From contig NZ_QUMK01000002.1 in assembly GCF_010907035.1 (NCBI RefSeq), positions 62,001 through 126,000 on the forward strand: 64,000 nt of DNA. Direction: 5' to 3'. The first letter of the stretch is position 1. Each line of letters starts with the position of its first letter. The notes under the pieces were generated by a model. It did not search any database, was not told where the DNA came from, and saw nothing but the letters and a program-made list of their open reading frames with translations. This document shows, piece after piece, positions 37,522-52,746 of the stretch. Position numbers and translations under genes: made by a program. The stretch comes from Rhodopseudomonas sp. BR0M22 (GTDB lineage: Bacteria > Pseudomonadota > Alphaproteobacteria > Rhizobiales > Xanthobacteraceae).

Positions 37522-37549
37522 TCGCGGCGTAGCTGATCGAACAATCGAG

Positions 37550-37582
37550 GGCGGCGGGGGTGACTCCGCCGCCTTCTCTTTT
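37550..37582 (+). terminator. Terminator of flagellin 1
   Basis: GGCGGCGG (37550-37557) pairs with CCGCCGCC (37566-37573), followed by TTCTCTTTT. Confidence 0.85.
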
Positions 37583-37674
37583 GCACCCGCTGCTCCCGTC
37601 CCGAGGTTCGTGTTGCGGGCGGGGATGCAGTAAGGTGCAGGTGATTCGGGTTACCCTAGAAACGGCGCCGTTGC

Positions 37675-38607
37675 ATGACCGACATCGCCCCGACGGCAGA
37701 TTCCAGCCCTGCATTCTCTGGCGCGCCGATGCCGCATGCGCCGGGGCCCGACCGGATCCTTGCTGACCTCATCGCTGCGCTGCCCGAGCTGGCGCGGCAT
37801 CACGCGCCGGGCGGGGCCGCCTACACGGCGCTGGCATCGGCCGCGCGCAGCGCCGTGGTGGCGTTGTTTGCTCGCGGCGGCAGCGACGTGCCGTTCGGCC
37901 CGTTCGGGTCGATCAGCTTTCCCTATCATCGGATGGGGGCTGTGGACTCGCTCGACCTGTTCGGTCTCGACGAGCTGATCCTGTTTTCGTTCTATTGGCA
38001 GAACCGAGGTCGCTACCGGCGTGTCGCCGATATCGGCGGCAATATCGGCTTGCACAGCCTGGTGATGGCGCGCTGCGGCTTTACGGTCGAGACCTATGAG
38101 CCGGACCCCGAGCATATCGCGCTATTTCAGGCCAATATGCGCGCCAACGGCGTCACCACGGTTCATGTCAATGAAGCGGCCGTCTCGGGGCAGGCGGGTG
38201 AGGCGGAGTTCCTGCGGTTGCGCGGTAACACGACCGGCAGCCACATCGCCGGCGCCAAACTCGATCCCTATGGCGAGATCGATCGCTTCAAGGTGCGGCT
38301 CGCTGCCTTCGACGACATCGCCGCAAACGCCGACTTCGCCAAGATCGACGCCGAAGGCCACGAGGCGGTGATCATCACCTCGCTGCCCAAGGAGCGCTGG
38401 CAGACCCTCGACGTCATGCTGGAGATCGGCAGCGAAGCCAACGCTGCGGTGATCTTCGACTATGCGCGCGGTGCCGGCGTGCAGCTGTTCACGCAGAAGA
38501 GCGGCTGGCGCCGAGCCGAGACGCTGGCCGACCTGCCGACCTCTTACAAGCAGGGCAGTGCCTTCCTCACCGCCAAGGACGCGATTCCGGGGCTGCCGCC
38601 GTCATGA
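37675..38607 (+). CDS. FkbM-family methyltransferase
   Basis: 310 residues from the ATG at 37675. SAM-binding motif VADIGGNIGLHSLVMA (about 117-132), EPDPEHIALF, and the FkbM family signature FAKIDAEGHE (about 221). FkbM enzymes O-methylate sugar hydroxyls and are common in surface-glycan loci. It is first in the island after the flagellin terminator, so a role in capping or methylating the flagellin glycan is plausible. The acceptor is unknown. Confidence 0.88.
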   Translation: MTDIAPTADSSPAFSGAPMPHAPGPDRILADLIAALPELARHHAPGGAAYTALASAARSAVVALFARGGSDVPFGPFGSISFPYHRMGAVDSLDLFGLDELILFSFYWQNRGRYRRVADIGGNIGLHSLVMARCGFTVETYEPDPEHIALFQANMRANGVTTVHVNEAAVSGQAGEAEFLRLRGNTTGSHIAGAKLDPYGEIDRFKVRLAAFDDIAANADFAKIDAEGHEAVIITSLPKERWQTLDVMLEIGSEANAAVIFDYARGAGVQLFTQKSGWRRAETLADLPTSYKQGSAFLTAKDAIPGLPPS

Positions 38608-38730
38608 TCCTCCGCGGTTGCCAAGTAAGATCCCGAGGCGTCGGACATGGTGCGGCTGCGACCGGTCATGATTTACACATTGCTAACGAATCACGCGCAA
38701 CCGTGATGGCTCGGAATGCCGAGGACGCCG

Positions 38731-39399
38731 ATGACGCAATCGCGTAACAGCACCGCCCCCGTGCCCGACGACGTTTCGGATGAAGTCGTCGCGACGCCGT
38801 TGCTGTCGAAACGGCAGATGTTCGGCTATTACGATCATCTGCGCGCCACCCTCACCAATGCCGAGGTGTCGGATTGCGACGGCCGGCCGTTCGCGCAGGA
38901 GGTCGCCGCCTCGCTGGTGATCGCCTGGGCCCGCGAGGTCCATGCCGATGGCCGCAAGCTGATGTTCATCGGCAATGGCGGCAGCGCAGCGATCGCCAGC
39001 CACATGGCCACCGACTACTCCAAGAACGGTGGCATGCGGGCGCTGTGCCTCAACGACGGCGCGATGCTGACCTGCCTCGGCAACGATTACGGCTACGAGC
39101 AGGTGTTCGCTAAACAGATCGAGCTGTTCGCGCAGGAAGGCGACCTGTTGATCGCGATTTCCTCGTCCGGTCGCTCCGCGAACATTCTCAACGCAGTCGC
39201 GGTGGCGCGCGAGCGCGGCTGTCGCGTGATCACCTTGAGCGGATTTTCCGCGGACAATCCGCTGCGGCGGGAAGGTGACATCAATTTCTATCTGGCCTCC
39301 GACCAGTATGGTTTCGTTGAACTCGGCCATCTGACGATTTGTCATGCGATCCTCGACTTCGCCTGCGGTCAGAGCGTGCCGCTGTCGGCGGCGGGCTGA
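38731..39399 (+). CDS. SIS-domain sugar-phosphate isomerase, GmhA-like
   Basis: 222 residues from the ATG at 38731 (GAGG six bases upstream); an ATG at 38716 lacks a ribosome site. The SIS motifs are LMFIGNGGSAAIASHMATDY and AISSSGRSANILNAV. The closest family is phosphoheptose isomerase GmhA, which converts sedoheptulose 7-phosphate to heptose 7-phosphate, and it is slightly longer than GmhA (about 190). With the HldE-like gene at 45430 it suggests an NDP-heptose-type precursor. Whether the substrate is sedoheptulose 7-phosphate is inferred. Confidence 0.85.
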   Translation: MTQSRNSTAPVPDDVSDEVVATPLLSKRQMFGYYDHLRATLTNAEVSDCDGRPFAQEVAASLVIAWAREVHADGRKLMFIGNGGSAAIASHMATDYSKNGGMRALCLNDGAMLTCLGNDYGYEQVFAKQIELFAQEGDLLIAISSSGRSANILNAVAVARERGCRVITLSGFSADNPLRREGDINFYLASDQYGFVELGHLTICHAILDFACGQSVPLSAAG

Positions 39400-39540
39400 C
39401 GGCTGGCCGCGACCGGCGGCCCGCGCAGTGCTATTCGGGGATGCAGGAATGCGTGTATCTCTTGCATTCAGGGTTGCAATTGATTCGCCGGGGCCGCGAT
39501 GCGTCGTGCCGGGGGCGGGCTAATCTGTGGGAATCGCACG

Positions 39541-40479
39541 ATGAAGATCCTGGTGACCGGCGCCTGCGGCTACGTCGGAACCACGCTGGTGCCCAAGCTG
39601 CTGGCACGCGGCGACGAGGTGGTGGCGTTCGACATCATGTGGTTCGGCAACGATCTGCCGCCGCACCCCCGGTTGACAGTGGTCCGCGGCGACGTCCGCG
39701 ATACCAAGTCGATTGATCTTTCCGGCATCGACGCGATCGTACATCTGGCTTCGGTCGCCAACGATCCGTGCGGCGATCTCGATCCAAAACTGACCTGGGA
39801 GATCAGCGCGCTCGCCACCATGCAGCTCGCCGACCGTGCCGCGCGCGCCGGCATCCAGCGCTTCATCTATGCGTCGTCCGGCAGCGTCTACGGCATCAAG
39901 GACGAAGAGCAGGTCACCGAGGACCTGACGCTGGAGCCGATCTCTGAATACAATAAGACCAAGATGGTGGCCGAGCGGGTGATGCTCAGCTACGCCGGCG
40001 ACATGGCGGTGCAGATCGTGCGGCCGGCGACGGTATGCGGGCCGTCGCCGCGGATGCGGCTCGACGTCTCGGTCAACATGCTGACGATGCAGGCGCTGAC
40101 CAACGGCGAGATCACCGTGTTCGGCGGCAATCAGGTCCGCCCCAACATCCACATCGACGACATCACCGATCTGTATCTGATGCTGCTCGACCGGCCCGAG
40201 CTGCGCGGTATCTACAATGCCGGCTTCGAGAACATCTCGATCCTGGACATCGCCCAGATGGTCGACGCCCAGGTGCCGACCAAGATCACCGTCACCGCCT
40301 CGAACGATCCGCGCTCGTACAGGATCAATTCCGACAAGCTGCTGGCGACCGGCTTCAAGCCGAAGAAGACGGTGAACGACGCGATCCGCGAGATCATCGT
40401 CAAGTTCCAGCGCGGCGAATTGAAGAACGAGGATCGCCACTACAATCTGCGCTGGATGCAGCGGAGCCTGCAGGCGTGA
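39541..40479 (+). CDS. NAD-dependent sugar epimerase/dehydratase 1
   Basis: 312 residues from the ATG at 39541. Extended-SDR features: NAD fold VTGACGYVGTTL (residues 5-16), catalytic Ser in YASSGSVYG and YxxxK as YNKTK (about 141-145). RPATVCGPSPRMRLD and PNIHIDDITDLY are typical of UDP-glucose epimerase-like enzymes. It acts on an NDP-sugar in the cytoplasm (epimerisation or C4 oxidation). Its stop overlaps the start of the next gene (GTGA), so translation is coupled. Confidence 0.9.
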   Translation: MKILVTGACGYVGTTLVPKLLARGDEVVAFDIMWFGNDLPPHPRLTVVRGDVRDTKSIDLSGIDAIVHLASVANDPCGDLDPKLTWEISALATMQLADRAARAGIQRFIYASSGSVYGIKDEEQVTEDLTLEPISEYNKTKMVAERVMLSYAGDMAVQIVRPATVCGPSPRMRLDVSVNMLTMQALTNGEITVFGGNQVRPNIHIDDITDLYLMLLDRPELRGIYNAGFENISILDIAQMVDAQVPTKITVTASNDPRSYRINSDKLLATGFKPKKTVNDAIREIIVKFQRGELKNEDRHYNLRWMQRSLQA

Positions 40480-41513
40480 CCGGAATCGTTCCCGCGTCCG
40501 CGCCGTGTGCGATGGCCCGCGCGGGCTTCGACAAATATCTAGTGATCGGTTCGAACTCGTTCACCGGCGCCTCGATGGTCAGCTATTTGCTCGACCAGGG
40601 CGCCGACGTCGTCGGCATCAGCCGCTCCGACGAGCCGCATCCTGCGTTCCTGCCGTATCGCTGGAAGAAGGCCGATCGCTTCCGATTTCACAAGCTCGAT
40701 CTCAACCACGATCTCGACGCGATCATGCAGCTGGTGACCGCCGAGCGTTTTCCCTGCATCATCAATTTTGCAGCCCAAAGCATGGTCGGTGAGAGCTGGG
40801 CCAACCCGGACCATTGGTTCATGACCAATGTGGTGTCGACGGTGCGCCTGCACGAGCGCCTGCGGACCTGCGACTTTCTCGAGCGCTACGTCCACGTCAC
40901 CACGCCGGAGGTCTATGGCAACGCCACCGGCACGCTGACCGAGGACGCGGTGTTCGATCCGTCGACGCCCTATGCGGTGTCGCGCGCGGCCGGCGACATG
41001 AGCCTGCGCTCGTATTTCCGCACCTACGGCTTTCCGGTGCTGTTCACCCGCGCCGCCAATGTCTACGGCCCGGGGCAGCGGCTGTACCGGATCGTGCCGC
41101 GCACCATCCTGTTCATCAAGCTCGGCCGCAAGCTGCAGCTGCATGGCGGCGGCACTTCGGAGCGCTCGTTCATCCATGCCGCTGATGTGGCCGATGCGAC
41201 CCGGCGGATCGCCTGCAACGGCAAGATCGGCGACAGCTATCACATCTCCACCGATCGCATCGTGACCATCCGCGCCCTGGTCGAGATGATCTGCGCGACG
41301 ATGGGCGTGCGGTTCGAGGACCAGGTCGAGATCGTCGGTGAGCGGCTCGGCAAGGACGCCGCCTACAAGCTCGACAGTAGCAAATTGCGTAGCGAACTCG
41401 GCTGGAGCGACCAGATCACGCTGGAGCAGGGCATCGAACAGACGATCGCCTGGATCGATCGCTGGTTTGAAGAACTGAAGAGCCAGCCGTTCGACTACGC
41501 GCACAAGCCTTGA
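40476..41513 (+). CDS. NAD-dependent NDP-sugar dehydratase/epimerase 2 with YxxxR active site
   Basis: 345 residues from the GTG at 40476 that overlaps the previous stop (GGAG upstream); an ATG at 40512 is an alternative. NAD fold VIGSNSFTGASMV; dehydratase-type HVTTPEVYGNA with the Thr-Pro-Glu triad, as in GDP-mannose and dTDP-glucose 4,6-dehydratases; RAANVYGPGQRLYR. The catalytic YxxxK is YAVSR here, with Arg for Lys. It probably makes or uses a 4-keto-6-deoxy NDP-sugar, the type of intermediate that carboligases can branch. The next gene starts 8 bp downstream. Confidence 0.88.
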   Translation: MTGIVPASAPCAMARAGFDKYLVIGSNSFTGASMVSYLLDQGADVVGISRSDEPHPAFLPYRWKKADRFRFHKLDLNHDLDAIMQLVTAERFPCIINFAAQSMVGESWANPDHWFMTNVVSTVRLHERLRTCDFLERYVHVTTPEVYGNATGTLTEDAVFDPSTPYAVSRAAGDMSLRSYFRTYGFPVLFTRAANVYGPGQRLYRIVPRTILFIKLGRKLQLHGGGTSERSFIHAADVADATRRIACNGKIGDSYHISTDRIVTIRALVEMICATMGVRFEDQVEIVGERLGKDAAYKLDSSKLRSELGWSDQITLEQGIEQTIAWIDRWFEELKSQPFDYAHKP

Positions 41514-41521
41514 GGACCGCA

Positions 41522-42181
41522 ATGGGTCAGGAAATCGATCTCCTCGTCAATTACCCGCGCACCAAGCGCAATGTCGACGAGCGCGGCCAGACCAAGTCGG
41601 AAGAGGATCGCGCGATTGCGCGGCGCTTCGGCAAAGAATTCTTCGACGGCGACCGCCGTCACGGCTATGGCGGATTCAACTACATGCCCCGTTTCTGGCA
41701 GCCGGTGATCCCGACCTTCCAGCAGCATTTCGGCCTCTCGGCGTCGTCTTCGGTGCTCGATGTCGGCTGTGCCAAGGGCTTCATGCTGCACGACATGGCC
41801 GAGCTGATCCCCGGCATCACCGTGAAGGGCGTCGATGTTTCGGACTACGCCATCGCGCATGCGATCGACGACATGAAGCCGCATGTCAGCGTCGCCAGCG
41901 CGACGAAGCTGCCGTTCGCCGACAAGTCGTTCGACGTGGTGATCTCGATCAACACCGTCCACAACCTCGTCCGAGACGACTGCGCAGAAGCGCTGCGCGA
42001 GATCGAGCGGGTGGCGCGCAAGGGGGCGTTCATTACCGTCGACGCCTATCGCGACGAAGAAGAGAAGCGCCGGATGATGGCGTGGAATCTGACCGCGCAG
42101 ACCATCATGCATGTCGACGAGTGGAAGGCCTTCTTCGCGCAAGTCGGCTACACCGGCGACTATTACTGGTTCATCCCATGA
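41522..42181 (+). CDS. SAM-dependent class I methyltransferase
   Basis: 219 residues from the ATG at 41522 (GAGG six bases upstream). SAM-binding motif SSVLDVGCAKGFMLHDMAEL (about 77-96), VKGVDVSDYAI and the post-I segment FDVVISINTVHNL. Family Methyltransf_11/25. It may methylate a sugar nucleotide or a keto-sugar. The ATGA overlap with the next gene shows tight coupling to the E1 alpha gene. Confidence 0.86.
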   Translation: MGQEIDLLVNYPRTKRNVDERGQTKSEEDRAIARRFGKEFFDGDRRHGYGGFNYMPRFWQPVIPTFQQHFGLSASSSVLDVGCAKGFMLHDMAELIPGITVKGVDVSDYAIAHAIDDMKPHVSVASATKLPFADKSFDVVISINTVHNLVRDDCAEALREIERVARKGAFITVDAYRDEEEKRRMMAWNLTAQTIMHVDEWKAFFAQVGYTGDYYWFIP

Positions 42182-43155
42182 ACCCCGAGACGTCGCGCCG
42201 GTTGCTGTTCGACATGCTGCGGATCCGCAGCGTGGAGGAGACCATCGCGGCGCGCTACGGCGAACAGAAGATGCGCTGCCCGACGCATCTGTCGGTCGGG
42301 CAGGAGGCGGTCGCCGCGGCGGCCGGTGCGGTGCTGAGGCCGACCGATCTTGCGGTCAGCGGGCATCGCGCCCATGCGCACTATCTCGCCAAAGGCGGAT
42401 CGCTGAAGGCGATGATCGCGGAGATCTACGGCAAGGTCACCGGCTGCGCCCGCGGCAAGGGCGGCTCGATGCATCTGGTCGACGAGAGCGTCGGCTTCAT
42501 GGGCTCGACCGCGATCGTCGGCGGCACGGTGCCGGTCGGCGTCGGGCTGTCCTATCCGATGAAGCTCAACAAGACCGGCCAAATTTCCTGTGTGTTCCTT
42601 GGCGACGCGGTGCCGGAGACCGGCGTGTTCTTCGAGTCGGTGAACTTCGCGGTGGTGAAGCGGCTCCCGGTGTTGTTCCTGTGCGAGAACAACGGCTACT
42701 CGGTGTATTCGCCGCTGTCGGTGCGGCAGCCGCCCGGCCGTAAGCTGTCCGAGCTGGTCGCCGGCTTCGGCCTCGAGACGCATCATGGCGACGGCAATGA
42801 TGCGCGCGCGGTGGTTGCGGCGCTCAGCGAAGGCGTGGCGGCGATCCGGGCCGGCGAGGGGCCGCGGTTCTACGAGTTCGAGACCTATCGTTGGCGCGAA
42901 CATTGTGGCCCGAACTACGACAACGACATTGGCTATCGGGCCGTCGCGGAGTTCGAGGCGTGGAAGCAGCGCGATCCGGTGCCGGCGCTGCAGCGCGCGT
43001 TGATCACCGAAGGGATCATGACCGAGGCCGACGTCGCCGACATGCAGGCCGAGATCGATGCGGAGATCGGGGAGGCGTTCGCGTTCGCAGAAAGCTCGCC
43101 GTTCCCGCCGCCCGAAGACGCCTTCACCGACGTCTACGCGTCGGCAGCAGGCTAG
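42178..43155 (+). CDS. Thiamine-diphosphate E1 alpha subunit (2-oxoacid dehydrogenase-like)
   Basis: 325 residues from the ATG at 42178 overlapping the previous stop. E1 alpha motifs: HLSVGQEAVAAAAGAVL, SGHRAHAHYLAKGGS, GKGGSMHL, and the ThDP/Mg motif from FLGDAVPETGVFFESVNFA to LFLCENNGYS. It pairs with the E1 beta gene 10 bp downstream. No E2 acyltransferase or E3 gene is present, so it is probably not a catabolic dehydrogenase. Related stand-alone E1 pairs occur in sugar-branching pathways (AviB1/B2 of avilamycin, from memory). Proposed role: transfer of a two-carbon unit to a keto-sugar. Confidence 0.88.
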   Translation: MNPETSRRLLFDMLRIRSVEETIAARYGEQKMRCPTHLSVGQEAVAAAAGAVLRPTDLAVSGHRAHAHYLAKGGSLKAMIAEIYGKVTGCARGKGGSMHLVDESVGFMGSTAIVGGTVPVGVGLSYPMKLNKTGQISCVFLGDAVPETGVFFESVNFAVVKRLPVLFLCENNGYSVYSPLSVRQPPGRKLSELVAGFGLETHHGDGNDARAVVAALSEGVAAIRAGEGPRFYEFETYRWREHCGPNYDNDIGYRAVAEFEAWKQRDPVPALQRALITEGIMTEADVADMQAEIDAEIGEAFAFAESSPFPPPEDAFTDVYASAAG

Positions 43156-43165
43156 GGAGGGCGGA

Positions 43166-44218
43166 ATGGCAACCACCTTCGCTGCCGCGATCCGGGATGG
43201 ACTCGCCACCGCGCTGGCCGCCGATCCGAACGTGATCTGCTTCGGCCTCGGCACCGACGATCCGAAGGGCGTGTTCGGCACCACACTCGATCTGCACAAG
43301 CAGTTCGGACCTGAGCGCGTTTTCGACATGCCGACTTCGGAAGCGGCGATGACCGGTTTTGCGATCGGCGCGGCGCTGAACGGGATGCGGCCGGTGATGA
43401 CGCATCAGCGGCTCGATTTCGCGCTGCTGTCGCTCGACCAGCTTGTCAACAACGCCGCCAAATGGCGCTTCATGTTCGGCGGCAAACGCGGCGTGCCGAT
43501 CACTATCCGGATGATCATTGGCCGCGGCTGGGGCCAGGGGCCGACGCATTCGCAGAGCCTGCAATCCTGGTTCGCGCATATTCCCGGCCTGAAGGTGGTG
43601 ATGCCGACCACGGCGGAAGATGCCAAGGGCTTGCTGCTCGGCGCTATCTTCGACGACGATCCGGTGATCTTCCTGGAGCATCGCTGGCTGCACAACATGC
43701 AGGGCGAAGTGCCCGCTGGCGATGTCCGTACCCCGCTCGGCAAGGCCCGTGTCGTACGCCAGGGCGATGCGGTGACGATCGTGGCGATGAGCTACATGAC
43801 GGTGGAGGCGCTGCACGCCGTCGATCATCTCGTCGCCCAAGGCATCGCCTGCGAGTTGATCGACCTGCGCATCATTCGTCCGCTGGACTGGCCGACGGTG
43901 ATCACCTCAGTGCAGAAGACCGGGCGCCTGCTGGCGCTCGACAGCGGACATCTGACCGGCGGTGTGGCCGGCGAGATTGTGGCGCGGATCGCCACCGATC
44001 ACTTCGCCAGCCTCAAGAGCGCGCCGCAGCGCCTCGCAGCGCCGGACGTGCCGGAGGCGACCAGCCCGGCGCTGACCAAGAATTATCACGTCCGCGCCGA
44101 ACACATCGCGCAAGCGGTCGGCCGCATACTCGGCCGCGACGTCGAAACTGCCTCGCTGGTCGCCCAGCGCACCTTCCCGCACGACGTGCCGGGCACCTGG
44201 TTCTCAGGACCGTTTTGA
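43166..44218 (+). CDS. Thiamine-diphosphate E1 beta subunit (transketolase C-terminal type)
   Basis: 350 residues from the ATG at 43166 (GGGAGG upstream). E1 beta features: FAAAIRDGLATALAADPNV, FDMPTSEAAMTGFAIGAAL (with the ThDP-activating Glu), RGWGQGPTHSQSLQSWFAHI, then a transketolase C-terminal domain with IIRPLDWPTVITSVQKTGRL. It forms an alpha2beta2 enzyme with the preceding gene. A palindromic repeat follows before the next gene. Confidence 0.88.
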   Translation: MATTFAAAIRDGLATALAADPNVICFGLGTDDPKGVFGTTLDLHKQFGPERVFDMPTSEAAMTGFAIGAALNGMRPVMTHQRLDFALLSLDQLVNNAAKWRFMFGGKRGVPITIRMIIGRGWGQGPTHSQSLQSWFAHIPGLKVVMPTTAEDAKGLLLGAIFDDDPVIFLEHRWLHNMQGEVPAGDVRTPLGKARVVRQGDAVTIVAMSYMTVEALHAVDHLVAQGIACELIDLRIIRPLDWPTVITSVQKTGRLLALDSGHLTGGVAGEIVARIATDHFASLKSAPQRLAAPDVPEATSPALTKNYHVRAEHIAQAVGRILGRDVETASLVAQRTFPHDVPGTWFSGPF

Positions 44219-44246
44219 GGGCGCGATGATGGCACAACCTGACACT

Positions 44247-44334
44247 GTCATTGCGAGGAGGCGAAGCCGACGAAGCAATCCAAGGGCCCAGTGCACGGGG
44301 CTCCTGGATTGCTTCGCTTCGCTCGCAATGACGG
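44247..44334. repeat. REP-like palindromic repeat, copy 1 (intergenic)
   Basis: GTCATTGCGAGGAGGCGAAG at one end and a CTCGCAATGACGG end form a long imperfect inverted repeat, with internal CGAAGCAATCC and GGATTGCTTCG arms. A similar 89-bp copy lies at 47645-47733. It separates the E1 beta gene from the dehydrogenase gene. Confidence 0.85.
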
Positions 44335-44368
44335 GGACAGTGCGGGCGTCTGCACAGCGGAGGCCGCC

Positions 44369-45424
44369 ATGCCCGTGACCTTCCGCGCCGCGGTGCTTCA
44401 CGAACTCAATCAGCCGCTCTCGATCGAGATGGTCGAGGCGCCGCCGCTCGCGGCCGGGCAAGTGCTGGTCAAGCTGGCTTACTCCGGCGTCTGCCACAGC
44501 CAGGTGATGGAAGCCCGCGGTGGGCGCGGACCGGATCGCTATCTGCCGCATATGCTCGGCCATGAAGGCTCGGGCGTCGTCGTCGAGATCGGCTCCGGCG
44601 TCAGCAAGGTCCGCAAGGGCGACCGAGTCATTCTCGGCTGGATCAAGGGCCAGGGCAGCGACACCCAAGGTGTGCGCTACGCCGGCGGCGAGCGCGTCAT
44701 CAATGCCGGCGCCGTCACCACCTTCAACGAATATGCCGTGGTCGCGGAGAACCGCGTCACGCTGCTGCCGGCTGGACTTCCGATGGACGTTGCAGTGCTG
44801 TTCGGCTGCGCGCTGCCGGTCGGCGCCGGCATCGTGCTCAACATCGCCAAGCCGCAGGCCGGCAGCACGCTGGCGATCTTCGGTCTTGGCGGCATCGGGC
44901 TCGCCGCACTGATGGCCTGCAAACTGTTCGCCTGCAAGCAGGTGATCGCTGTCGATGTCGAAGCCGCCAAGCTGAAGATGGCGACCGAGCTCGGTGCGAC
45001 AACCGTGATCGATGCGTCGGTTGCCGATCCGGTCGAGGAGATCCGTAAGCTGACCGGCGGGCTCGGCGTCGACTACGCGATCGAGTCCGCCGGCCTCACC
45101 CGCGTGATCGAGCAGGCGTTCGACGCCACGCGTCGGTTCGGCGGGCTGTGCGTGTTCGCCTCGCACCCGCGGAGCGGCGAGAAGATCGCGCTCGACCCGT
45201 TCGAGCTGATCTGCGGCAAACGGATCCTCGGCACCTGGGGCGGCGATGCCAAGCCGGAGCGCGACATCGAACTGCTGGCGGGCCTGTACCGCGACGGCAA
45301 GCTGCCTCTCGATGCGATGTTCACCCGCCGCTACAAACTCGACGAGATCAACGAGGCGCTGGACGATCTTGCGCAACGCCGCAGCGTGCGCCCGCTGATC
45401 GAAATCGATCCGTCGCTGAGGTGA
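44369..45424 (+). CDS. Zinc-type medium-chain alcohol dehydrogenase without structural zinc site
   Basis: 351 residues from the ATG at 44369 (GGAGG five bases upstream). Catalytic-zinc residues in YSGVCHSQVME, LGHEGSGVV and FGCALPVGAG; NAD fold TLAIFGLGGIGLAAL (about residues 172-186). The four-Cys structural-zinc loop of class III-type alcohol dehydrogenases is absent, replaced by GWIKGQGSDTQGVRYAGG. In this island it most likely oxidises or reduces a sugar or a polyol side chain. Its stop overlaps a possible GTG of the next gene. Confidence 0.87.
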   Translation: MPVTFRAAVLHELNQPLSIEMVEAPPLAAGQVLVKLAYSGVCHSQVMEARGGRGPDRYLPHMLGHEGSGVVVEIGSGVSKVRKGDRVILGWIKGQGSDTQGVRYAGGERVINAGAVTTFNEYAVVAENRVTLLPAGLPMDVAVLFGCALPVGAGIVLNIAKPQAGSTLAIFGLGGIGLAALMACKLFACKQVIAVDVEAAKLKMATELGATTVIDASVADPVEEIRKLTGGLGVDYAIESAGLTRVIEQAFDATRRFGGLCVFASHPRSGEKIALDPFELICGKRILGTWGGDAKPERDIELLAGLYRDGKLPLDAMFTRRYKLDEINEALDDLAQRRSVRPLIEIDPSLR

Positions 45425-45429
45425 CGCTG

Positions 45430-46914
45430 ATGCTGCATCCCGAGACCGATACGGCGCTTGCCGACATCCGCAAACAGGCCGGACGCCGACGCAGCATCGT
45501 GTTCGTCTCGGGCAATTTCAACATCGTCCATCCAGGCCATCTGCGGCTTCTGAAATTCGCCGCGGATTGCGGCGACTATCTGGTGGTCGGCGTCACCGCC
45601 GAACCCGGTTACGACTGGATGCTGCCGGCCGAACTGCGGCTCGAAGGCGTGCGTGCCATCGGCGTTGTCGACCACGCCTTCCTGCTGCACGATGCGCCGG
45701 AGGATTTTGTCGCTGCGTTGCGGCCTGCCGTCGTGGTCAAGGGCAAGGAACACGAGGGCGCCGACAATCCGGAGAAGGCGGTACTCGACGGCTATGGCGG
45801 CCGCCTGGTGTTCTCCTCCGGCGAGGTCGCGTTCTCGTCGCTCGATCTGATCAAGCGCGAGTTCCGCGAATTCAATCCGTCGTCGATCGTCAAGCCGCTC
45901 GACTATCCGCGTCGGCATCGCTTCGAACCGCTCGACCTGAAGAACGTGCTGGCGGGATTTCCCAAGCTGCGGGTTCTGGTGATCGGTGATCTGATCGTCG
46001 ACGAATACATCGCCTGCGATCCGCTCGGCCTGTCGCAGGAAGATCCGACGATCGTGGTGACGCCGGTGCTGCGCGAATTGTTCGTCGGCGGCGCCGGCAT
46101 CGTCGCCGGTCATGCGGCCGGCATGGGCGCGCAAGTCGGCCTGCTCACGGTCGGCGGCGGCGACGCGATGGCGGACTTCGCCCGCGAGCGGCTGGCGTCG
46201 TACAACGTCGACGCCACGATCCTCACCGATGAGAGCCGGCCGACCACCACCAAGCAGCGCTTCCGCGCCGGCAACAAGACGCTGCTGCGGGTCAGTCATC
46301 TCAAACAGCACGACGTCGATGCCGATCTACAGACGCGGATGCTGGAGACGATCGAGCATCGGCTGCCGACGACTGATTTGGTGGTGTTCTCCGACTTCAA
46401 TTACGGCTGCTTGCCGACCCGGTTGGTCGAGACGGTCGGTCAGGCGTGCCGAGCGCGCGGTGTGCCGATGGTGGCCGACAGCCAATCGTCGTCGCAGGTC
46501 GGCGATATCTCGCGCTTCACCGAGATGCTGCTGATCAAGCCGACCGAGCGTGAGGCGCGGCTGGCCATGCGCGATTTCGATTCCGGTCTCGTCGTGCTGG
46601 TCGAAGCGTTGCGCGAAAAAGCGCGGGCCAAGAACGTGATCCTGACGCTGGCGGCCGAGGGCCTGTTGGTGCACGCCGAAACCGGCAGTGCCGGCACCGT
46701 GGTGACCGACCGGCTGCCGGCGTTCAACACCGCACCGAAGGATGCGGCGGGCGCCGGCGACTCGTTCTTCGTCTGCGCCGCGCTGGCGCTGGCGATCGGC
46801 ACCGACATCTGGCGCAGCGCCTATCTCGCTTCGATCGCCGCCGCCTGCCAGGTCGGCCGGATCGGCAACATCCCGGTCACCGCGCGCGACATCATCCGGG
46901 AGCTCGACGCGTGA
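45430..46914 (+). CDS. Bifunctional cytidylyltransferase-PfkB kinase, HldE-like with reversed domain order
   Basis: 494 residues from the ATG at 45430 (GAGG eight bases upstream); a GTG at 45421 is possible. The N-terminal nucleotidyltransferase has the HxGH motif in NIVHPGHLRLLKFA (about 30-43). The C-terminal carbohydrate kinase (from about residue 175) has VLVIGDLIVDEYI and the catalytic Asp in APKDAAGAGDSFFV. HldE of enterobacteria has the kinase first and the nucleotidyltransferase second, so the order here is swapped. It would phosphorylate a sugar 7-phosphate at C1 and nucleotidylate it. No GmhB phosphatase is seen nearby. The stop overlaps the next start. Confidence 0.88.
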   Translation: MLHPETDTALADIRKQAGRRRSIVFVSGNFNIVHPGHLRLLKFAADCGDYLVVGVTAEPGYDWMLPAELRLEGVRAIGVVDHAFLLHDAPEDFVAALRPAVVVKGKEHEGADNPEKAVLDGYGGRLVFSSGEVAFSSLDLIKREFREFNPSSIVKPLDYPRRHRFEPLDLKNVLAGFPKLRVLVIGDLIVDEYIACDPLGLSQEDPTIVVTPVLRELFVGGAGIVAGHAAGMGAQVGLLTVGGGDAMADFARERLASYNVDATILTDESRPTTTKQRFRAGNKTLLRVSHLKQHDVDADLQTRMLETIEHRLPTTDLVVFSDFNYGCLPTRLVETVGQACRARGVPMVADSQSSSQVGDISRFTEMLLIKPTEREARLAMRDFDSGLVVLVEALREKARAKNVILTLAAEGLLVHAETGSAGTVVTDRLPAFNTAPKDAAGAGDSFFVCAALALAIGTDIWRSAYLASIAAACQVGRIGNIPVTARDIIRELDA

Positions 46915-47840
46915 GCGGCAGCCCCAAGGCGCTGCTGGTCGCGGCCGGCCTCGGCACGCGGCTGGCGCCGCTCACCGATGTGCTGCCGAAATGCCTGATG
47001 CCGGTCGCCGGCCGCCCGCTGCTCGGGCTGTGGCTGCAGATGCTGAGCGAGGCAGGCTTCTCGGAGATCGTCGTCAATCTGCATCACCATGCGGATCTCG
47101 TGAGCGAGTATATCCGCCGCAGTCCGTGGGCACAGCGCGTGATCCTCGCGCCTGAGACCTCGCTGCTCGGCACCGCCGGCACGCTGCTACGGCATCGCGA
47201 GCGCTTCGTAGGTGGGCCGACGCTGTTCGCCCATGCCGACAATCTCAGCCTGTTCGATCCGCGCGCCTTCCTCGCCACCCATGCGGGGCGCGCCCCAGAT
47301 ACGGCAATGACGATGATGAGCTTCGTCACCGATCATCCGCAAAGCTGCGGCATCCTCACCCTCGATCCCGCCGGCCGTGTGCTGGAGATGGACGAGAAGC
47401 CGCAGCATCCCAAGGGCAACCTTGCCAATGCGGCGGTGTATATCGTCGAGCCAGAGGTGATCGACTTCATCGCCTCGCTCGGCAAGCCGGTGGTCGATTT
47501 CTCGACCGAAGTGCTGCCGGTGTTCATGGGACGCATCTTCGCGTTCCACAACGGCAGCTATCACCGCGACATCGGCAATCCGGCGAGCCTGGCGCTGGCG
47601 CAGATCGATTTTCCGTTGGCGGCCATTCAGTTTGAAGCCTCTCCCCGTCATTGCGAGGAGGCGCCGCCGACAACGCAATCCAGCCCCGCGCATGGCGCCT
47701 CTGGATTGCTTCGCCTTCGGCCCGCAATGACGGAGACCAATAACGACGATCCCTGGTATGGCCTGATGACCGAGAACAACGGCGCCTTGGCGCAGGCGTT
47801 CGCGCAGGCTGCGGCAAAGACCTATGGGGGCCAGCGATGA
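46911..47840 (+). CDS. Sugar-phosphate nucleotidyltransferase with in-frame REP insertion
   Basis: 309 residues from the GTG at 46911 that overlaps the previous stop. NTP-transferase signature LVAAGLGTRLAPLTDVLPKC (residues 8-27), then LLGTAGTLL and ADNLSLFDP. Closest to HddC/mannose-1-phosphate guanylyltransferase-type enzymes that activate heptose 1-phosphates. From about residue 246 to 275 the protein is encoded by a genomic palindromic repeat (SPRHCEEAPPTTQSSPAHGA), then it resumes with DDPWYGLMTENNGAL. The insertion kept the frame and is near the C-terminus, so activity may survive. Confidence 0.87.
   Translation: MSGSPKALLVAAGLGTRLAPLTDVLPKCLMPVAGRPLLGLWLQMLSEAGFSEIVVNLHHHADLVSEYIRRSPWAQRVILAPETSLLGTAGTLLRHRERFVGGPTLFAHADNLSLFDPRAFLATHAGRAPDTAMTMMSFVTDHPQSCGILTLDPAGRVLEMDEKPQHPKGNLANAAVYIVEPEVIDFIASLGKPVVDFSTEVLPVFMGRIFAFHNGSYHRDIGNPASLALAQIDFPLAAIQFEASPRHCEEAPPTTQSSPAHGASGLLRLRPAMTETNNDDPWYGLMTENNGALAQAFAQAAAKTYGGQR
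47645..47733. repeat. REP-like palindromic repeat, copy 2 (inside coding sequence)
   Basis: Starts CCGTCATTGCGAGGAGGCG and ends CCCGCAATGACGG, with internal CGCAATCCAG and CTGGATTGC arms. Same family as 44247-44334. It lies within the 3' part of the nucleotidyltransferase gene and is read through in frame. Confidence 0.85.
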
Positions 47841-48646
47841 GCGGCAGCGTCGTTATCGCGGCGATCTCCAGTGACATCGGCGTCAGGCTGGCGCAGCTCT
47901 ATCGGGCGCAGGGCTATGACGTCATCGGCACCTATCGGTCCAGCGAGAATTTGAGCGAGCTGAAGTCTGATGCCGGCATTCATCTGGTGCATTGCGATCT
48001 GACGGATGCCAGCAGCGTGCGCAGCGCGGCGGCGGAGATCGCGGCGCTCGGCAAGCCCTGGGAGCGGCTGATCAGCGCCGCGGGGCAGTTGTCCCCGATC
48101 GGGGATTTCTTCGGGCGCGACTTCGAGGAGTGGGCGGCGTCGCTGTCGCTGAATTCGGTCGCGCAGATGCGGCTGCTGCACGCGCTGTATCCGCATCGCG
48201 CGCAGGGGGCGATCACCAAGGTCGCGTTCCTGGTCGGCGGCGGAATCAACGGCCCGTTCCGCAACTACTCGGCCTATTGCCTCGGCAAGGTCATGCTGGT
48301 GAAGCTGTGCGAATTGCTCGACGACGAATATGCCGATGTGCACGCGATCGCGGTCGGCACCGGCTGGGTCAACACCAAGATTCATCGCCAGACTGTGGAG
48401 GCCGGCGACGACGCCGGCATCAGTCTGCGCCGCACGCTCGAGTTCCTAGACTCGGGCGCGCAGGGCACGTCTTACGAAGACATTCTCGGCTGCATCGAAT
48501 GGGCGTTCGATGCAGGCCGAGCGGCGACCGGCGGACGCAATTTCTCGGTGGTGCACGATGCCTGGCGCGGCGCCGGCGGCGCGGCCCTGACCGAGCGGCT
48601 CGTCACTGATCCGAACATTTACAAGCTGCGCCGCCACGGCAATTGA
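47837..48646 (+). CDS. Short-chain dehydrogenase/reductase
   Basis: 269 residues; the ATG at 47837 overlaps the previous stop. The nucleotide-binding region is the atypical VVIAAISSDIGVRLA. ISAAGQ stands for the NAAG motif and YxxxK is YCLGK (in NYSAYCLGKVML). VGTGWVNTK is the usual post-active-site segment. It probably reduces a ketone on the modified sugar, such as the product of a carboligase step. The ThDP enzyme gene follows closely. Confidence 0.85.
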   Translation: MSGSVVIAAISSDIGVRLAQLYRAQGYDVIGTYRSSENLSELKSDAGIHLVHCDLTDASSVRSAAAEIAALGKPWERLISAAGQLSPIGDFFGRDFEEWAASLSLNSVAQMRLLHALYPHRAQGAITKVAFLVGGGINGPFRNYSAYCLGKVMLVKLCELLDDEYADVHAIAVGTGWVNTKIHRQTVEAGDDAGISLRRTLEFLDSGAQGTSYEDILGCIEWAFDAGRAATGGRNFSVVHDAWRGAGGAALTERLVTDPNIYKLRRHGN

Positions 48647-48669
48647 TCGGCCGCGCAAGGAGGACAAGC

Positions 48670-50472
48670 GTGAAGCTCTCCGACTATGTCATCGATTTTC
48701 TGGCGCGGCGCGGCGTCACCCATGTGTTCGGCATTTCCGGCGGCGCGGCGGTGCACATGTTCGATTCCGCCCACCGTCACCCGGACGTCACGCCGATCTT
48801 TCCGCAGCACGAGCAGGCGGCTGCGATCGCCGCGGACGGCTATGCCCGCGCCACCGGCAAGCTCGGCGTCGCCATCACCACCTCGGGGCCCGGCGCTACC
48901 AATCTGCTGACCGGGGTGTGCTGCGCCTATTACGACTCGGTGCCGACGCTGATGATCACCGGGCAGGTCGCCACCCATCGGCTGAAGGGAAAGAACCAGA
49001 TCCGTCAGCTGGGTTTTCAGGAAACCGACGTCACTTCGATCTTCGCCACCGTGACCAAATACGCGGTGCAGATCTCCGACCCGACCACCATCCGCTATCA
49101 TCTGGAGAAGGCGTATCATCTCGCATTCGAGGGGCGGCCCGGTTCGGTGCTGATCGATCTGCCGGACGATCTGCAGCGCGCCGAGATCGATCCCGAAGCG
49201 CTCGCTGGCTTCACGCCGGAAACGGCAACCGCACCCGGTGATCTCGACACCGAGATCGCGGCGCTGCTGCCGCTGATCGCGCGCGCGAAACGTCCGGTGC
49301 TGATCCTCGGTGGTGGGCTATCGACGCCACGGATCGGGTCGATGCTGGATCAGCTCGTCGACCGCCTCGGCATGCCGGTGCTGACCACCTGGGCGGCCAC
49401 CGATCTGATCGCAGCCGATCACCCGCTGCGGGTCGGGCCGTTCGGCGTCTATGGGCCGCGGCTCGGCAACTTCACGGTGCAGAACGCCGATCTGATCCTG
49501 TGCCTCGGCAGCCGGCTGTCGCAGAACGTCACCGGCGGCATCCTGCCGTCGTTTGCGCGCGAGGCGACGATCGTGATGGTCGACGCCAGCCGCGGCGAGA
49601 TGGACAAGTTCGATGATCGCGGTATCCGCATCGCGACCCGGATCGCGGCGCGGCTCGATGCCTTTGTGCCGAAGCTGCTCGCCGCAGTCGAGGCGGCGCC
49701 GCCGCGTGAGGCTTGGCTGAATACGATCGCGCGTTGGCGGGTCGCCTTGCCGGACGATCGGCCGGGCCCCGCGCCCGGCAATGCCGGCTTTGTCGACGCT
49801 TATGATTTTATCGACAAGCTCAGCGACGCTGCGCCCGCCGATGAACTGATCTATGTCGACACCGGCGGCAATCTCACTTGGACTTGCAACGGCTTCCGCA
49901 TCAAGCGCGGACAGCGGTTGATTTCGGACTGGAACAACACAGCGATGGGTTACGCGTTGGCGGCATCGATCGGTGCCGCGGTGCAGGCGAAGGGCGGCGT
50001 CACCTGCATCATCGGCGATGGCGGCTTGATGCTGTCGCTCGGCGAGCTGGCGCTGCTCAAGCGGCACGAGCTGCCGGTGCGCTTGATGCTGTTCAACAAT
50101 CACGGCCACGGCATCCAGAAGCAGACGCTGGAGACCTGGCTCGATGGCCACTATGTCGGCGTCGATGCGCCGAGCGGATTGTCGTTCGTGGACTTCCGCA
50201 AAGTTGCCGAGGCGATGGACCTGCCGGTGGTCACGATCAGCCGCAGCGCCGATATCGCCGGCCAGCTTCGCGACGTCTATGCGCGTAAAGGTCCCGTGTT
50301 CTGCAATGTCGAAATCAACCCGGCGCAGAAATTGTACCCGGTGCTGAAGTTCGGCGCGCCGCTGGAGAGCCAGCTACCGTCGATCGACGATGACCTGATC
50401 AAGCGCGAGATGCTGATCGCGCCGTTCGTCCCCGGCTCCGCGCCAAAACACAGCGGCGGCGCGGGCGTGTAA
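48670..50472 (+). CDS. Acetolactate-synthase-like thiamine-diphosphate enzyme
   Basis: 600 residues from the GTG at 48670 (AAGGAGG upstream). The N-terminal ThDP-PYR domain has VFGISGGAAVHMFDSA and the activating Glu in PQHEQAAAIAADGYARATGK; the central domain has ILGGGLSTPRIGSML; the C-terminal ThDP-PP domain has IIGDGGLMLSLGELALLKR and FNNHGHGIQ. Relatives include acetolactate synthase and YerE, which adds a two-carbon branch to a CDP-keto-sugar for yersiniose. In this island a sugar carboligase is more likely than branched-chain amino acid synthesis: there is no small subunit gene. Convergent with the OGT gene, 12 bp apart. Confidence 0.87.
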   Translation: MKLSDYVIDFLARRGVTHVFGISGGAAVHMFDSAHRHPDVTPIFPQHEQAAAIAADGYARATGKLGVAITTSGPGATNLLTGVCCAYYDSVPTLMITGQVATHRLKGKNQIRQLGFQETDVTSIFATVTKYAVQISDPTTIRYHLEKAYHLAFEGRPGSVLIDLPDDLQRAEIDPEALAGFTPETATAPGDLDTEIAALLPLIARAKRPVLILGGGLSTPRIGSMLDQLVDRLGMPVLTTWAATDLIAADHPLRVGPFGVYGPRLGNFTVQNADLILCLGSRLSQNVTGGILPSFAREATIVMVDASRGEMDKFDDRGIRIATRIAARLDAFVPKLLAAVEAAPPREAWLNTIARWRVALPDDRPGPAPGNAGFVDAYDFIDKLSDAAPADELIYVDTGGNLTWTCNGFRIKRGQRLISDWNNTAMGYALAASIGAAVQAKGGVTCIIGDGGLMLSLGELALLKRHELPVRLMLFNNHGHGIQKQTLETWLDGHYVGVDAPSGLSFVDFRKVAEAMDLPVVTISRSADIAGQLRDVYARKGPVFCNVEINPAQKLYPVLKFGAPLESQLPSIDDDLIKREMLIAPFVPGSAPKHSGGAGV

Positions 50473-50484
50473 CGGAAATGGGGC

Positions 50485-52746
50485 TCAGCGCCCGCGGCGC
50501 AGCGCCCGATCCTTGGCTTCGTCGAATGGCGTGGCGCACCAACGTTCCCACATCGTCCGGTACGCGTCTTCGACCGCGCGTGTGTAGGCGACCGGACCAC
50601 AGCGCTGCAGGATGAAGTCGCGCAAGCCGCGGCGGATCGAGCGCAGCCGCTCGAGATCCGGCTTGCTGGCAATCTCGATGTAGCGCGTGTCGTCGGTCGC
50701 GATGAAGTCCGGCAGCCCGGCGGCGGCGAGCACCGCACAGCCGACCCGGCTGGGCACGGTGGTGCCGAGCCGGCTGACCACCGGCACCCCCATATGCAAC
50801 GCTTCCCAGGTCGAGACGCCACCGGCCTGCGGGAACGGGTCGAGGCAGAGATCGACCTGCCTGAGCGTTTCGAGGTGATCCTGCCGTGAGCTGGAGCCCA
50901 GCAGGGTGATCCGATCCACCGCGATGCCGCGTGTTCGGAACTTGTCGAGCAGGGTCTGGCGCACCGACGGATCGTCGATCTGGTGATCCTTCAGGATCAG
51001 CCGCGCCGTCGGCACCGTGGCCAGCAGTTGCGCCCACACCGCGATGGCTTCGTCCGACATCTTGGAGATGCGGTTGAGCGAACCGTAGGTCAGATAACCG
51101 TTGCGATCGAACGGTAGTTCCTGCGAGCGCCACTGGTCTGGGGTTGGCTCGATGATCACGATCGATGGCAGATCGTAGATCGTCTCGGCGTAGAAGTGCC
51201 GGTCCTCGACCGGGATCGCCACCGGGTCGCCGAGCAGATAGTCGATCACCGGCAGACCGGTGCCGGTGGCATGGCCCCAGGCGCTGATCTGCACCGGCGC
51301 CAGCTTGCGGGCGAATACCCGCAGCCGGTTGCCGCCCGAGTGGCCCGACAGGTCGACCAGAATGTCGACCTTGTCTTGCCGGATCGCGTCGGCGAGACGA
51401 TCGTCGGGCCATTGCGAGGAGTCGCGCCATTTGTCGGCGACAGCCATGAAACTGCTGGTGGTGTCGTCGGGAATGATGACGCCGGAATAACAGACGACCT
51501 CGAAATTCTGCTTGTCGTGATGCGTCAGTACCGGGCGGAACGAGAACGCGGCCGAATGCGCGCGGAAATCCGCCGACACGTAGCCGACGACGAGTCGCCG
51601 GTCCGGATCGCGATCATTGACCGGGGGCACCGCGCAGGCGCGGTAGATCGGCGCGCCGACTTTGGTCCACCAGTTCTTTCGGGCCGCCTGCTGCATCTCG
51701 ATGGTCGAGCCGGCGCTGAAGTCCATCGCGAAGATCTGGCTCGAGATCGCCGCTTCGTAGTGAGGCGCCAGCTCCAGTGCGCGGCTGTGCAGCTTGATGG
51801 CGGTCTCGGCATCGCCGAGCGCGGCCATGCAGTTGCCGAGCAACGTCAGGGACGGCACCGAATTCGGCTCGACCTTCAGCACCGCGGTGCAGGTCGCCAT
51901 CGCGTCCTTGACGTTCCTCATCGCCAGCAGCGTCTCGGCGCGGAAGATCCCGGCCTCGACCGGGCGCTTGCCGATCGACAGCGCACGGTCGTAGCTGGCG
52001 AGCGCCAGATCGAACTCTTTCAGCTCCTTGAAGGTGCTGGCGCGGTTCATGAAGGCGGCGTCGTTGAGCGGATCGATTTCGATCGCCTTGTCGTAGCTCG
52101 CCAGCGCATCCTGATAGCGGCCGAGCTTGTGCAGTGCATTGCCGCGGTCGTTCCAGCTGTCGGTGCGGTCAGGCACCAGCTCGATCGCCTTGTCGTAGCT
52201 GGCCACGGCTTCATCGTAGCGGCCGAGGGCGGCCAGCGCGAGGCCGCGGTTGGCATGCGCGAGCGCAAGGTTCGGGTCGAGCGCGATCGCCTTGTCGGAC
52301 GATGCGATCGCCTCCGCAAACCGGCCGGCAGTGAGCATCAGAATGCTCATGTCGGAGTGTGCCTGCGCCGAATTCGGCTCGATCAGCAGTGCGCGCTTCA
52401 GCGACCGGATCGCAGGCTCGATATTGCCGCTCTGGTACTCGGCTAGCGCGTAGAAGTGCAGCGCGCCGAAATTGTCCGGCGCCTTCTTCAGCACCTTCTT
52501 GTAGGCCGAGCGCGCCTCGTCGAGCTGCCCGTTCTGATGCAGCAGCCGCGCGCGCATCAACAGCATCACCGGCTCGTAAGCCTTGTCGGTCTGGCTGCGG
52601 GGAGGAACGGCCTTGCTGCGTCCGGGCTGCATCTGATGATCCGAATCTGGCTGAGGGATCGTATCTCCTCGGGTCCTGTCGCGCACCTGAGAGACGCTCG
52701 TAGGCGCGGCATCCTCCGACAGGCGTGTAAATAATTCATAAACCAT
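50485..52746 (-). CDS. TPR-GT41 (OGT/SPINDLY-type) protein O-glycosyltransferase, candidate flagellin transferase
   Basis: About 753 residues from the ATG at 52746; an upstream TTG (52800) and an ATG at 52632 are alternatives, and none has a strong ribosome site. The N-terminal half is eight or more TPR repeats (for example DAVASYDKAIELVPD-like units such as YDEAVASYDKAIELVPDRTD). The C-terminal half is the GT41 catalytic region: VGYVSADFRAHSAAF, LVDLSGHSGGNRL, QISAWGHATGTGLPVIDYLL and DPFPQAGGVSTWEALHMGVP. Such enzymes O-glycosylate Ser/Thr of proteins. FlmG of Caulobacter, a TPR protein, glycosylates flagellins. Its place between the sugar genes and flagellin 2 suggests the same role. Confidence 0.88.
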   Translation of the reverse strand: MVYELFTRLSEDAAPTSVSQVRDRTRGDTIPQPDSDHQMQPGRSKAVPPRSQTDKAYEPVMLLMRARLLHQNGQLDEARSAYKKVLKKAPDNFGALHFYALAEYQSGNIEPAIRSLKRALLIEPNSAQAHSDMSILMLTAGRFAEAIASSDKAIALDPNLALAHANRGLALAALGRYDEAVASYDKAIELVPDRTDSWNDRGNALHKLGRYQDALASYDKAIEIDPLNDAAFMNRASTFKELKEFDLALASYDRALSIGKRPVEAGIFRAETLLAMRNVKDAMATCTAVLKVEPNSVPSLTLLGNCMAALGDAETAIKLHSRALELAPHYEAAISSQIFAMDFSAGSTIEMQQAARKNWWTKVGAPIYRACAVPPVNDRDPDRRLVVGYVSADFRAHSAAFSFRPVLTHHDKQNFEVVCYSGVIIPDDTTSSFMAVADKWRDSSQWPDDRLADAIRQDKVDILVDLSGHSGGNRLRVFARKLAPVQISAWGHATGTGLPVIDYLLGDPVAIPVEDRHFYAETIYDLPSIVIIEPTPDQWRSQELPFDRNGYLTYGSLNRISKMSDEAIAVWAQLLATVPTARLILKDHQIDDPSVRQTLLDKFRTRGIAVDRITLLGSSSRQDHLETLRQVDLCLDPFPQAGGVSTWEALHMGVPVVSRLGTTVPSRVGCAVLAAAGLPDFIATDDTRYIEIASKPDLERLRSIRRGLRDFILQRCGPVAYTRAVEDAYRTMWERWCATPFDEAKDRALRRGR

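Follow-up and report, generated by a model that had tools for sequence, protein, structure and literature searches.

The window, that is the whole stretch of 64,000 nucleotides analysed here, lies within contig C82 of the 5.29 Mb genome of Rhodopseudomonas sp. BR0M22 (NZ_QUMK01000002.1, positions 62,001 to 126,000) and carries 13 genes between two giant flagellin genes. Twelve of them, on the plus strand, are referred to below as the cassette, and one, on the minus strand, encodes a glycosyltransferase of the GT41 family with tetratricopeptide repeats (TPRs). The bracketing of 13 genes by two giant flagellins had been claimed in an earlier note on this DNA and is borne out by gene calls and Pfam. 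Gene identities were derived from Pfam and NCBIfam profile cut-offs and from comparison with solved structures (PDB), and relatives were located by tblastn. The features, including enzymes dependent on thiamine diphosphate (ThDP), are as follows.

34855-37521, plus strand: flagellin A, left border, 888 amino acids; Flagellin_N, DUF1522 and Flagellin_C over the Pfam cut-offs
37576-52907, strandless: present-or-absent segment (island) of about 15.3 kb; edges from four non-carriers
37675-38607, plus strand: FkbM-family methyltransferase; PF05050 and TIGR01444 over cut-off
38716-39399, plus strand: SIS sugar-phosphate isomerase, GmhA-like; PF13580, TIGR00441 with 100.7 bits versus a cut-off of 209.45
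39541-40479, plus strand: epi1, NAD-dependent epimerase/dehydratase, GalE-like; PF01370, motifs SSGSVYG and YNKTK
40476-41513, plus strand: epi2, RmlB-like with the atypical motifs GSNSFTG, TTPEVYG and YAVSR; PF16363, TIGR01181 with 218.9 versus 365.1
41510-42181, plus strand: class I S-adenosylmethionine-dependent methyltransferase (MT); PF08241
42178-43155, plus strand: ThDP E1-alpha subunit (E1a), aKADH2-like; PF00676, TIGR03182 with 278.9 versus 393.85
43166-44218, plus strand: ThDP E1-beta subunit; PF02779 and PF02780
44369-45424, plus strand: zinc-dependent alcohol dehydrogenase (ADH) of the medium-chain dehydrogenase/reductase type; PF00107 and PF08240
45430-46914, plus strand: NTK, N-terminal HldE-type nucleotidyltransferase and C-terminal PfkB kinase; PF01467 followed by PF00294
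46911-47840, plus strand: RmlA-like sugar-1-phosphate nucleotidyltransferase (NTase); PF00483
47837-48646, plus strand: short-chain dehydrogenase/reductase (SDR), a reductase; PF00106
48670-50472, plus strand: putative YerE-like ThDP C-C ligase; PF02776, PF00205 and PF02775, best solved match 8rph
50485-52746, minus strand: TPR-GT41 O-glycosyltransferase of FlmG-like architecture, 753 amino acids from ATG, frame open to 52800; PF13844 and TPRs
53152-55809, plus strand: flagellin B, right border, 885 amino acids; Flagellin_N, DUF1522 and Flagellin_C over the Pfam cut-offs
56023-56403, plus strand: FlbT; NF009432 with 208.8 bits, over the cut-off of 153
56407-56775, plus strand: FlaF; NF009435 with 144.1 bits, over the cut-off of 91

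Overlaps of four bases in five gene pairs (epi1/epi2, epi2/MT, MT/E1a, NTK/NTase and NTase/SDR) indicate co-translation, in line with the coordinated expression deduced in the earlier note from overlapping starts and stops; a single coordinated sugar-nucleotide pathway is supported. The YerE-like gene is the last of the plus-strand run, and 12 bases beyond it the opposite strand carries the GT41 stop. Upstream, the island is preceded by an FlgE-like gene, FlgK and a gene in the position of FlgL; downstream, flagellin B is followed by FlbT and FlaF. The GC content of the 12 cassette genes is 61-67% as compared to 65% for the window, composition therefore showing no sign of a recent import, and recent foreign DNA was rejected on this ground.

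Among 16 Rhodopseudomonas genomes, the window's own included, DUF1522 flagellins occur in all (16/16) and E1a occurs in ten with 86-100% identity. A genome-neighbourhood search, as advised in the earlier note, found E1a flanked by DUF1522 flagellins on both sides within a single contig in all ten carriers, and for this reason the arrangement of flagellins and island is not due to chance. The order of the 12 genes and GT41 was read in nine of the ten carriers (the window, G028, G125, G108, G173 and G177, as well as G175, G176 and G179 via loci L058, L059 and L060), with carrier G174 represented by coordinates only. In the six non-carriers, the flagellins are adjacent in G172, G141, G067 and G089 and are separated by GT41 alone in G178, and in G171 the contig breaks at the flagellins. 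The match of the flaA-flaB intergenic regions of four non-carriers to the window ends at 37521-37575 on the left side and resumes at 52908/52909 on the right; the block of approximately 37576-52907 occurs either whole or not at all, and the island is a real, conserved, present-or-absent segment. As 113-171 bases in these intergenic regions match neither side of the window, the joint is not scarless. In an unrooted FlaB-FlbT-FlaF tree of 14 genomes, the empty G141 stands beside the carriers G108 and G177 (support 0.99), a grouping that suggests loss of the island in the G141 lineage, with the proviso that the tree genes are flagellar and may recombine. Island and GT41 co-occur in ten of the 16 genomes, one has only GT41, none has only the island and five have neither; the corresponding Fisher p = 0.0014 is not independent evidence, as island and GT41 are physically linked and the genomes related. 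The closest named relatives of NTK are encoded by Rhodopseudomonas pentothenatexigens JA575 (98%) and R. palustris XCP (96%).

The twelve genes are a portable cassette. By tblastn, all 12 proteins are found in a Chloroflexi metagenome-assembled genome (L066, extended as L134), and the complete 12-gene cassette recurs in G521 and G347 of one alphaproteobacterial genus (L148 and L149) and in G502 of another (L158). Among 385 genomes of the class, again including the window's own, E1a (E <= 1e-75) is found in 38 and the YerE-like protein (E <= 1e-90) in 14, while both occur together in seven (G000, which is the genome of the window, G301, G347, G485, G502, G521 and G546), in five of the seven on the same contig.

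Outside Rhodopseudomonas, 11 loci with epi1 of at least 60% and NTK of at least 50% were compared, with flanks limited to the stretches examined. Five of them possess the E1 pair (L061, L134, L148, L149 and L158) and six a split transketolase (L043/044, L045/046, L069, L074, L076 and L077), the two never occurring together (0/11) within these stretches; a YerE-like gene is present in 4/5 of the E1 loci versus 0/6 of the transketolase loci. As L148/L149 and L076/L077 are close relatives, there are fewer than 11 independent cases. HAD-like and APH-like genes accompany the transketolase form; in L074, Pfam matched the APH-like but not the HAD-like gene. The cassette thereby shows aKADH2 and transketolase as alternative modules on one pathway scaffold. 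NTase is in the same stretch in 25/25 non-Rhodopseudomonas loci with NTK of at least 50%. A pair of NTK and NTase is also seen without close matches to other cassette genes in the stretches examined (L062, L063, L065, L067, L068, L070, L072, L075, L078 and L079) and may be a stand-alone activation unit. In other alphaproteobacterial sugar clusters (L048, L050, L153 and L160-L163), E1-alpha/beta pairs recur with SIS, GmhB-like HAD and/or transaldolase-like genes, the latter two names being taken from translations only.

Compared with solved structures, the YerE-like protein reaches 328 bits with 8rph, 285 bits with 5ahk and at most 264 bits with acetolactate synthases, and by these scores acetohydroxyacid synthases are more distant from it than a known YerE-like enzyme is. 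The motifs GDG...NN, which we take to be the ThDP motif, and HEQ, presumably with the catalytic glutamate, are kept in 9/9 aligned sequences. The E1 pair is not an ordinary pyruvate dehydrogenase: it stays under the respective equivalog cut-offs, the second E1a match in the same genome is 34% identical, and neither a lipoyl (E2) nor an E3 domain is among the Pfam matches of the 13 genes. One glutamate of E1-beta, in our assumption the catalytic one, is conserved in 13/13 aligned sequences. 8rph is JanthE, a YerE-like enzyme (PMC12188165), so that the label acetolactate-synthase-like, given to the YerE-like protein in the earlier note, stands as far as a ThDP decarboxylase-type enzyme is concerned, but gives way to JanthE as the closest solved structure, though not in the NCBIfam ranking; the occurrence of carbon-carbon bond-forming ThDP enzymes in the locus, claimed there as well, is supported by this protein and the E1 pair. 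YerE-like enzymes are described to occur in sugars of lipopolysaccharide (LPS), with a subclass accepting ketones, and aKADH2 pairs in branched-sugar pathways, mainly of antibiotics, while transketolases are proposed to form hydroxyacetyl branches (PMC12247030).

The YerE-like assignment and the exchange of E1 pair and transketolase together suggest a C-branched sugar activated with a nucleoside diphosphate (NDP). Reading the genes in this way, we consider with moderate confidence that the portable 12-gene cassette makes one NDP-activated C-branched sugar and is coupled with a cytoplasmic FlmG-like flagellin glycosyltransferase. In the proposed pathway, SIS isomerase, NTK and its constant partner NTase would turn a sugar phosphate into an NDP-sugar, from which epi1, epi2 and ADH would yield a keto-sugar. 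E1-alpha/beta, without E2 or E3 in the locus, would then put a pyruvate-derived two-carbon acyl group on the sugar ketone, the YerE-like enzyme would attach a second acyl branch or, with a different 2-oxo acid as donor, a longer one, and SDR would reduce the branch ketone. After methylation by MT and the FkbM protein, TPR-GT41 would transfer the product onto Ser/Thr residues of the large flagellins prior to their export, comparable to Caulobacter FlmG. The more specific proposal, that the flagella carry a doubly C-branched methylated sugar, built by two ThDP ligases of the aKADH2 and YerE types from a non-heptose start by reversed-order NTK and NTase and possibly shared with the O-antigen, is put forward tentatively. 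Alternatively, the ThDP enzymes could, in a transketolase- or DXS-like manner, extend a straight-chain phosphorylated sugar before activation and lead to a higher-carbon unbranched product, which we regard as distinctly unlikely; this concerns the product, not the acceptor, and is compatible with the other explanations discussed. Transketolase subunits replacing the E1 pair in sister cassettes are in line with such an extension, as are the SIS isomerases and PfkB kinases, whose substrates are sugar phosphates. The YerE-like subclass described as ketone-accepting and the aKADH2 pairs described in branched-sugar pathways, on the other hand, argue for a branch (PMC12247030).

A heptose as the starting sugar, as claimed in the earlier note, is not established. 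The island SIS isomerase has phosphoheptose isomerases as its best solved matches, with at most 86 bits, and reaches 100.7 bits with the GmhA model TIGR00441 versus 191.3 bits for the GmhA-like protein encoded elsewhere in the genome; as the latter also misses the cut-off of 209.45, the cut-off failure of SIS alone is weak evidence. The protein called HldE-like in the earlier note is indeed a fusion of nucleotidyltransferase and kinase, but with reversed domain order, nucleotidyltransferase first: TIGR02199 matches NTK at residues 17-143 and TIGR02198 at 177-491, both under cut-off, and its HldE domains score 183.3 (cut-off 345) and 56.9 (cut-off 181.5) bits versus 380.8 and 203.7 for the genome's own HldE. 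NTase gives 41.6 bits with the HddC model (cut-off 300) and weak PDB matches, the best being mannose-1-phosphate guanylyltransferase with 76 bits, as compared to 55.5 bits for a 6-deoxy-heptose pathway protein. With the own heptose enzymes as control, membership in an NDP-heptose pathway of the GmhA/HldE/HddC type was rejected on equivalog cut-offs. The own heptose locus, located about 36 kb before the window, encodes HldE in the normal kinase-first order, with both domains over cut-off, and HldD, likewise over cut-off, while the own GmhA-like (191.3 versus 209.45) and GmhB-like (161.6 versus 178) proteins are just under it; with this locus in the genome, core heptose does not depend on the island. 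As SIS isomerase, NTK, NTase and the RmlB-like epi2 all remain below NCBIfam equivalog cut-offs, no substrate is assignable from families. A C-terminal tail of NTase (46911-47840), which looks derived from a REP-like repeat, as we presume, is seen in 9/9 aligned carrier sequences, and relatives outside the genus are without it.

With N-terminal TPRs followed by a GT41 domain and its closest PDB matches in SPINDLY and OGT, TPR-GT41 shows the FlmG-class architecture of a TPR N-terminus and a GT-B type C-terminus. It is encoded by the single GT41 gene found in its genome and is present in 10/10 carriers and one other genome (G178). Caulobacter FlmG, which has N-terminal TPRs, is described to use flagellins as substrates and to need pseudaminic acid (PMC7591256), and by analogy with it flagellin would be the likeliest acceptor of the island sugar. 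Flagellin as glycan acceptor, as proposed earlier, is in this sense supported by an FlmG-like GT41 inside the flagellin locus, and the locus also proves unlike the pseudaminic and legionaminic acid pathways, as had been stated: no NeuB-type synthase is found in it, and the one NeuB match of the genome lies on contig C44 beside NeuC and Gmd, in what looks like a separate surface-polysaccharide cluster. A pseudaminic/legionaminic flagellin pathway was consequently rejected.

Several observations weigh against a flagellin-bound C-branched sugar, the first ones with respect to the acceptor. In G178 (L125; G178:C690), two DUF1522 flagellins enclose only a TPR-GT41 (62%) and no cassette, possibly as an intermediate state, and GT41 thus need not use the cassette sugar. 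Together with the likeness to SPINDLY and OGT and with Gmd in the genome, this agrees with a GT41 that puts a widespread sugar, for instance GlcNAc or fucose, on flagellin, with the cassette product used elsewhere; as no carrier is without GT41 (0/10) and G141, branching beside carriers, is without both GT41 and cassette, we hold this to be quite improbable. Furthermore, R. palustris CGA009 reportedly has a C-4-branched O-antigen sugar (Marchetti 2018), and the cassette may accordingly act in LPS synthesis, either exclusively or in addition to flagellin. That its product is such a C-4-branched O-antigen sugar or belongs to some other polysaccharide, whether or not flagellin receives it too, with the position between flagellins being incidental or a sign of this double use, appears rather unlikely to us. 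In favour of this, the O-antigen of CGA009 is described to contain a 3-O-methylated C4-branched sugar (PMC9912281), the cassette includes methyltransferases, and in the 16 genus genomes no other match to the YerE-like protein exceeds 232 bits, as compared to 1200-1359 bits for the island copies; RhopE of R. palustris, which is assumed to form a branched sugar (PMC12247030), may be the ortholog of this YerE-like gene. Complete cassettes elsewhere adjoin other glycan genes, namely a GT2-type protein in L148 and L149 and, from Pfam run on L148 only, GT2 together with an LPG_synthase_TM protein, and in the stretches L134, L148, L149 and L158 no flagellin or FlgE/K/L query match was obtained at the cut-offs used. 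The O-antigen reading is opposed by the position of the cassette between flagellins in all ten carriers, by the lack of any flippase, polymerase, ABC exporter or glycosyltransferase besides GT41 among the Pfam matches of the 13 genes, and by the NeuB/NeuC/Gmd locus on C44, which looks like the genome's own surface-polysaccharide cluster.

Further such points concern the enzymes. 5ahk, the second solved match of the YerE-like protein, which we take to be PpYerE, was deposited as acetolactate synthase II, and among the NCBIfam matches listed for this protein (best 25 of 51) the acetolactate synthase TIGR00118 comes first, with 364 bits below the cut-off of 538, and no YerE-named model occurs. 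Among the NCBIfam matches listed for the 13 genes, only fkbM_fam and, in NTK, the short generic cyt_tran_rel are over cut-off. The cofactor motif of E1a, which is GDG in three of 13 aligned sequences, is replaced by GDA in nine, the window included, and by GEA in one (L134, Chloroflexi). In epi2, the lysine of YxxxK is changed to arginine in 11 of 13 aligned sequences, again including the window, and to histidine in L061, lysine being kept in L150; GSNSF at the cofactor site and PE instead of DE before VYG/AYG are found in 13/13. With this lysine replaced and TIGR01181 at 218.9 versus 365.1, epi2 does not qualify as an RmlB-type 4,6-dehydratase; without the usual lysine the dehydratase step is uncertain and the reading as a simple 4,6-dehydratase is weakened. 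Together with the 12 relatives aligned to it, the window's epi2 belongs to an RmlB-like group characterized by the GSNSF and PE motifs and mostly arginine for the catalytic lysine.

C-branched sugars have so far been described for LPS and antibiotics (PMC12247030), and none on flagellin came up in literature searches limited to open-licence papers and judged from their listings; if true, a flagellin C-branched sugar would extend the chemical range of filament glycans and provide a new donor class for FlmG-like enzymes. The cassette is also a candidate source of the C-4-branched sugar that the O-antigen of R. palustris CGA009 reportedly contains, and a testable model for reversed HldE-like proteins such as CBU0678 of Coxiella.

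Besides the island, a third giant DUF1522 flagellin is encoded on contig C90 (G000:C90:11993), with no sugar cluster apparent in 14 kb of translations there, and a flagellin lies within a 318-amino-acid open frame on C98. The open frame of 416 amino acids at 51196-52446 on the plus strand, antisense to GT41 and without Pfam match, is probably spurious, and 61994-63190 on the plus strand encodes a MexC/AcrA-like RND efflux periplasmic adaptor.

Among known systems, the YerE-like enzymes YerE, ErwE and JanthE, and RhopE of R. palustris, resemble the island protein in that JanthE is its best solved match, in the GDG...NN and HEQ motifs and in the clustering with a 4,6-dehydratase-like protein and a reductase. 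Theirs are described in LPS contexts (PMC12247030), whereas the island copy is accompanied by an E1 pair and located between flagellins. With the aKADH2 enzymes of the aldgamycin, kibdelomycin and avilamycin type, compared by description, the locus shares an E1-alpha/beta pair that stands in a sugar cluster unaccompanied by E2/E3; these enzymes serve mainly antibiotics as far as described (PMC12247030), while the island pair is found in a cell-surface setting. The Coxiella genes CBU0674/0676/0677/0678, linked to virenose and O-antigen, include in CBU0678 the same reversed order, with a phosphoheptose isomerase and epimerases nearby; CBU0678 is described as required for full-length LPS, its function being called unknown (PMC5843353). 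They differ in serving O-antigen, and transketolase, pyruvate dehydrogenase and acetolactate have 0 mentions in the main text of that source (PMC5843353). The bradyrhizose cluster of photosynthetic Bradyrhizobium (gdh operon) differs in that it is described to serve LPS. Caulobacter FlmG, compared by architecture, shares N-terminal TPRs, a C-terminal GT-B type domain and flagellin substrates with TPR-GT41, and the Caulobacter control genome also matches the GT41 family, a match that is not tied to FlmG; while FlmG is described to need pseudaminic acid (PMC7591256), the pathway linked to the island enzyme is ThDP-based.

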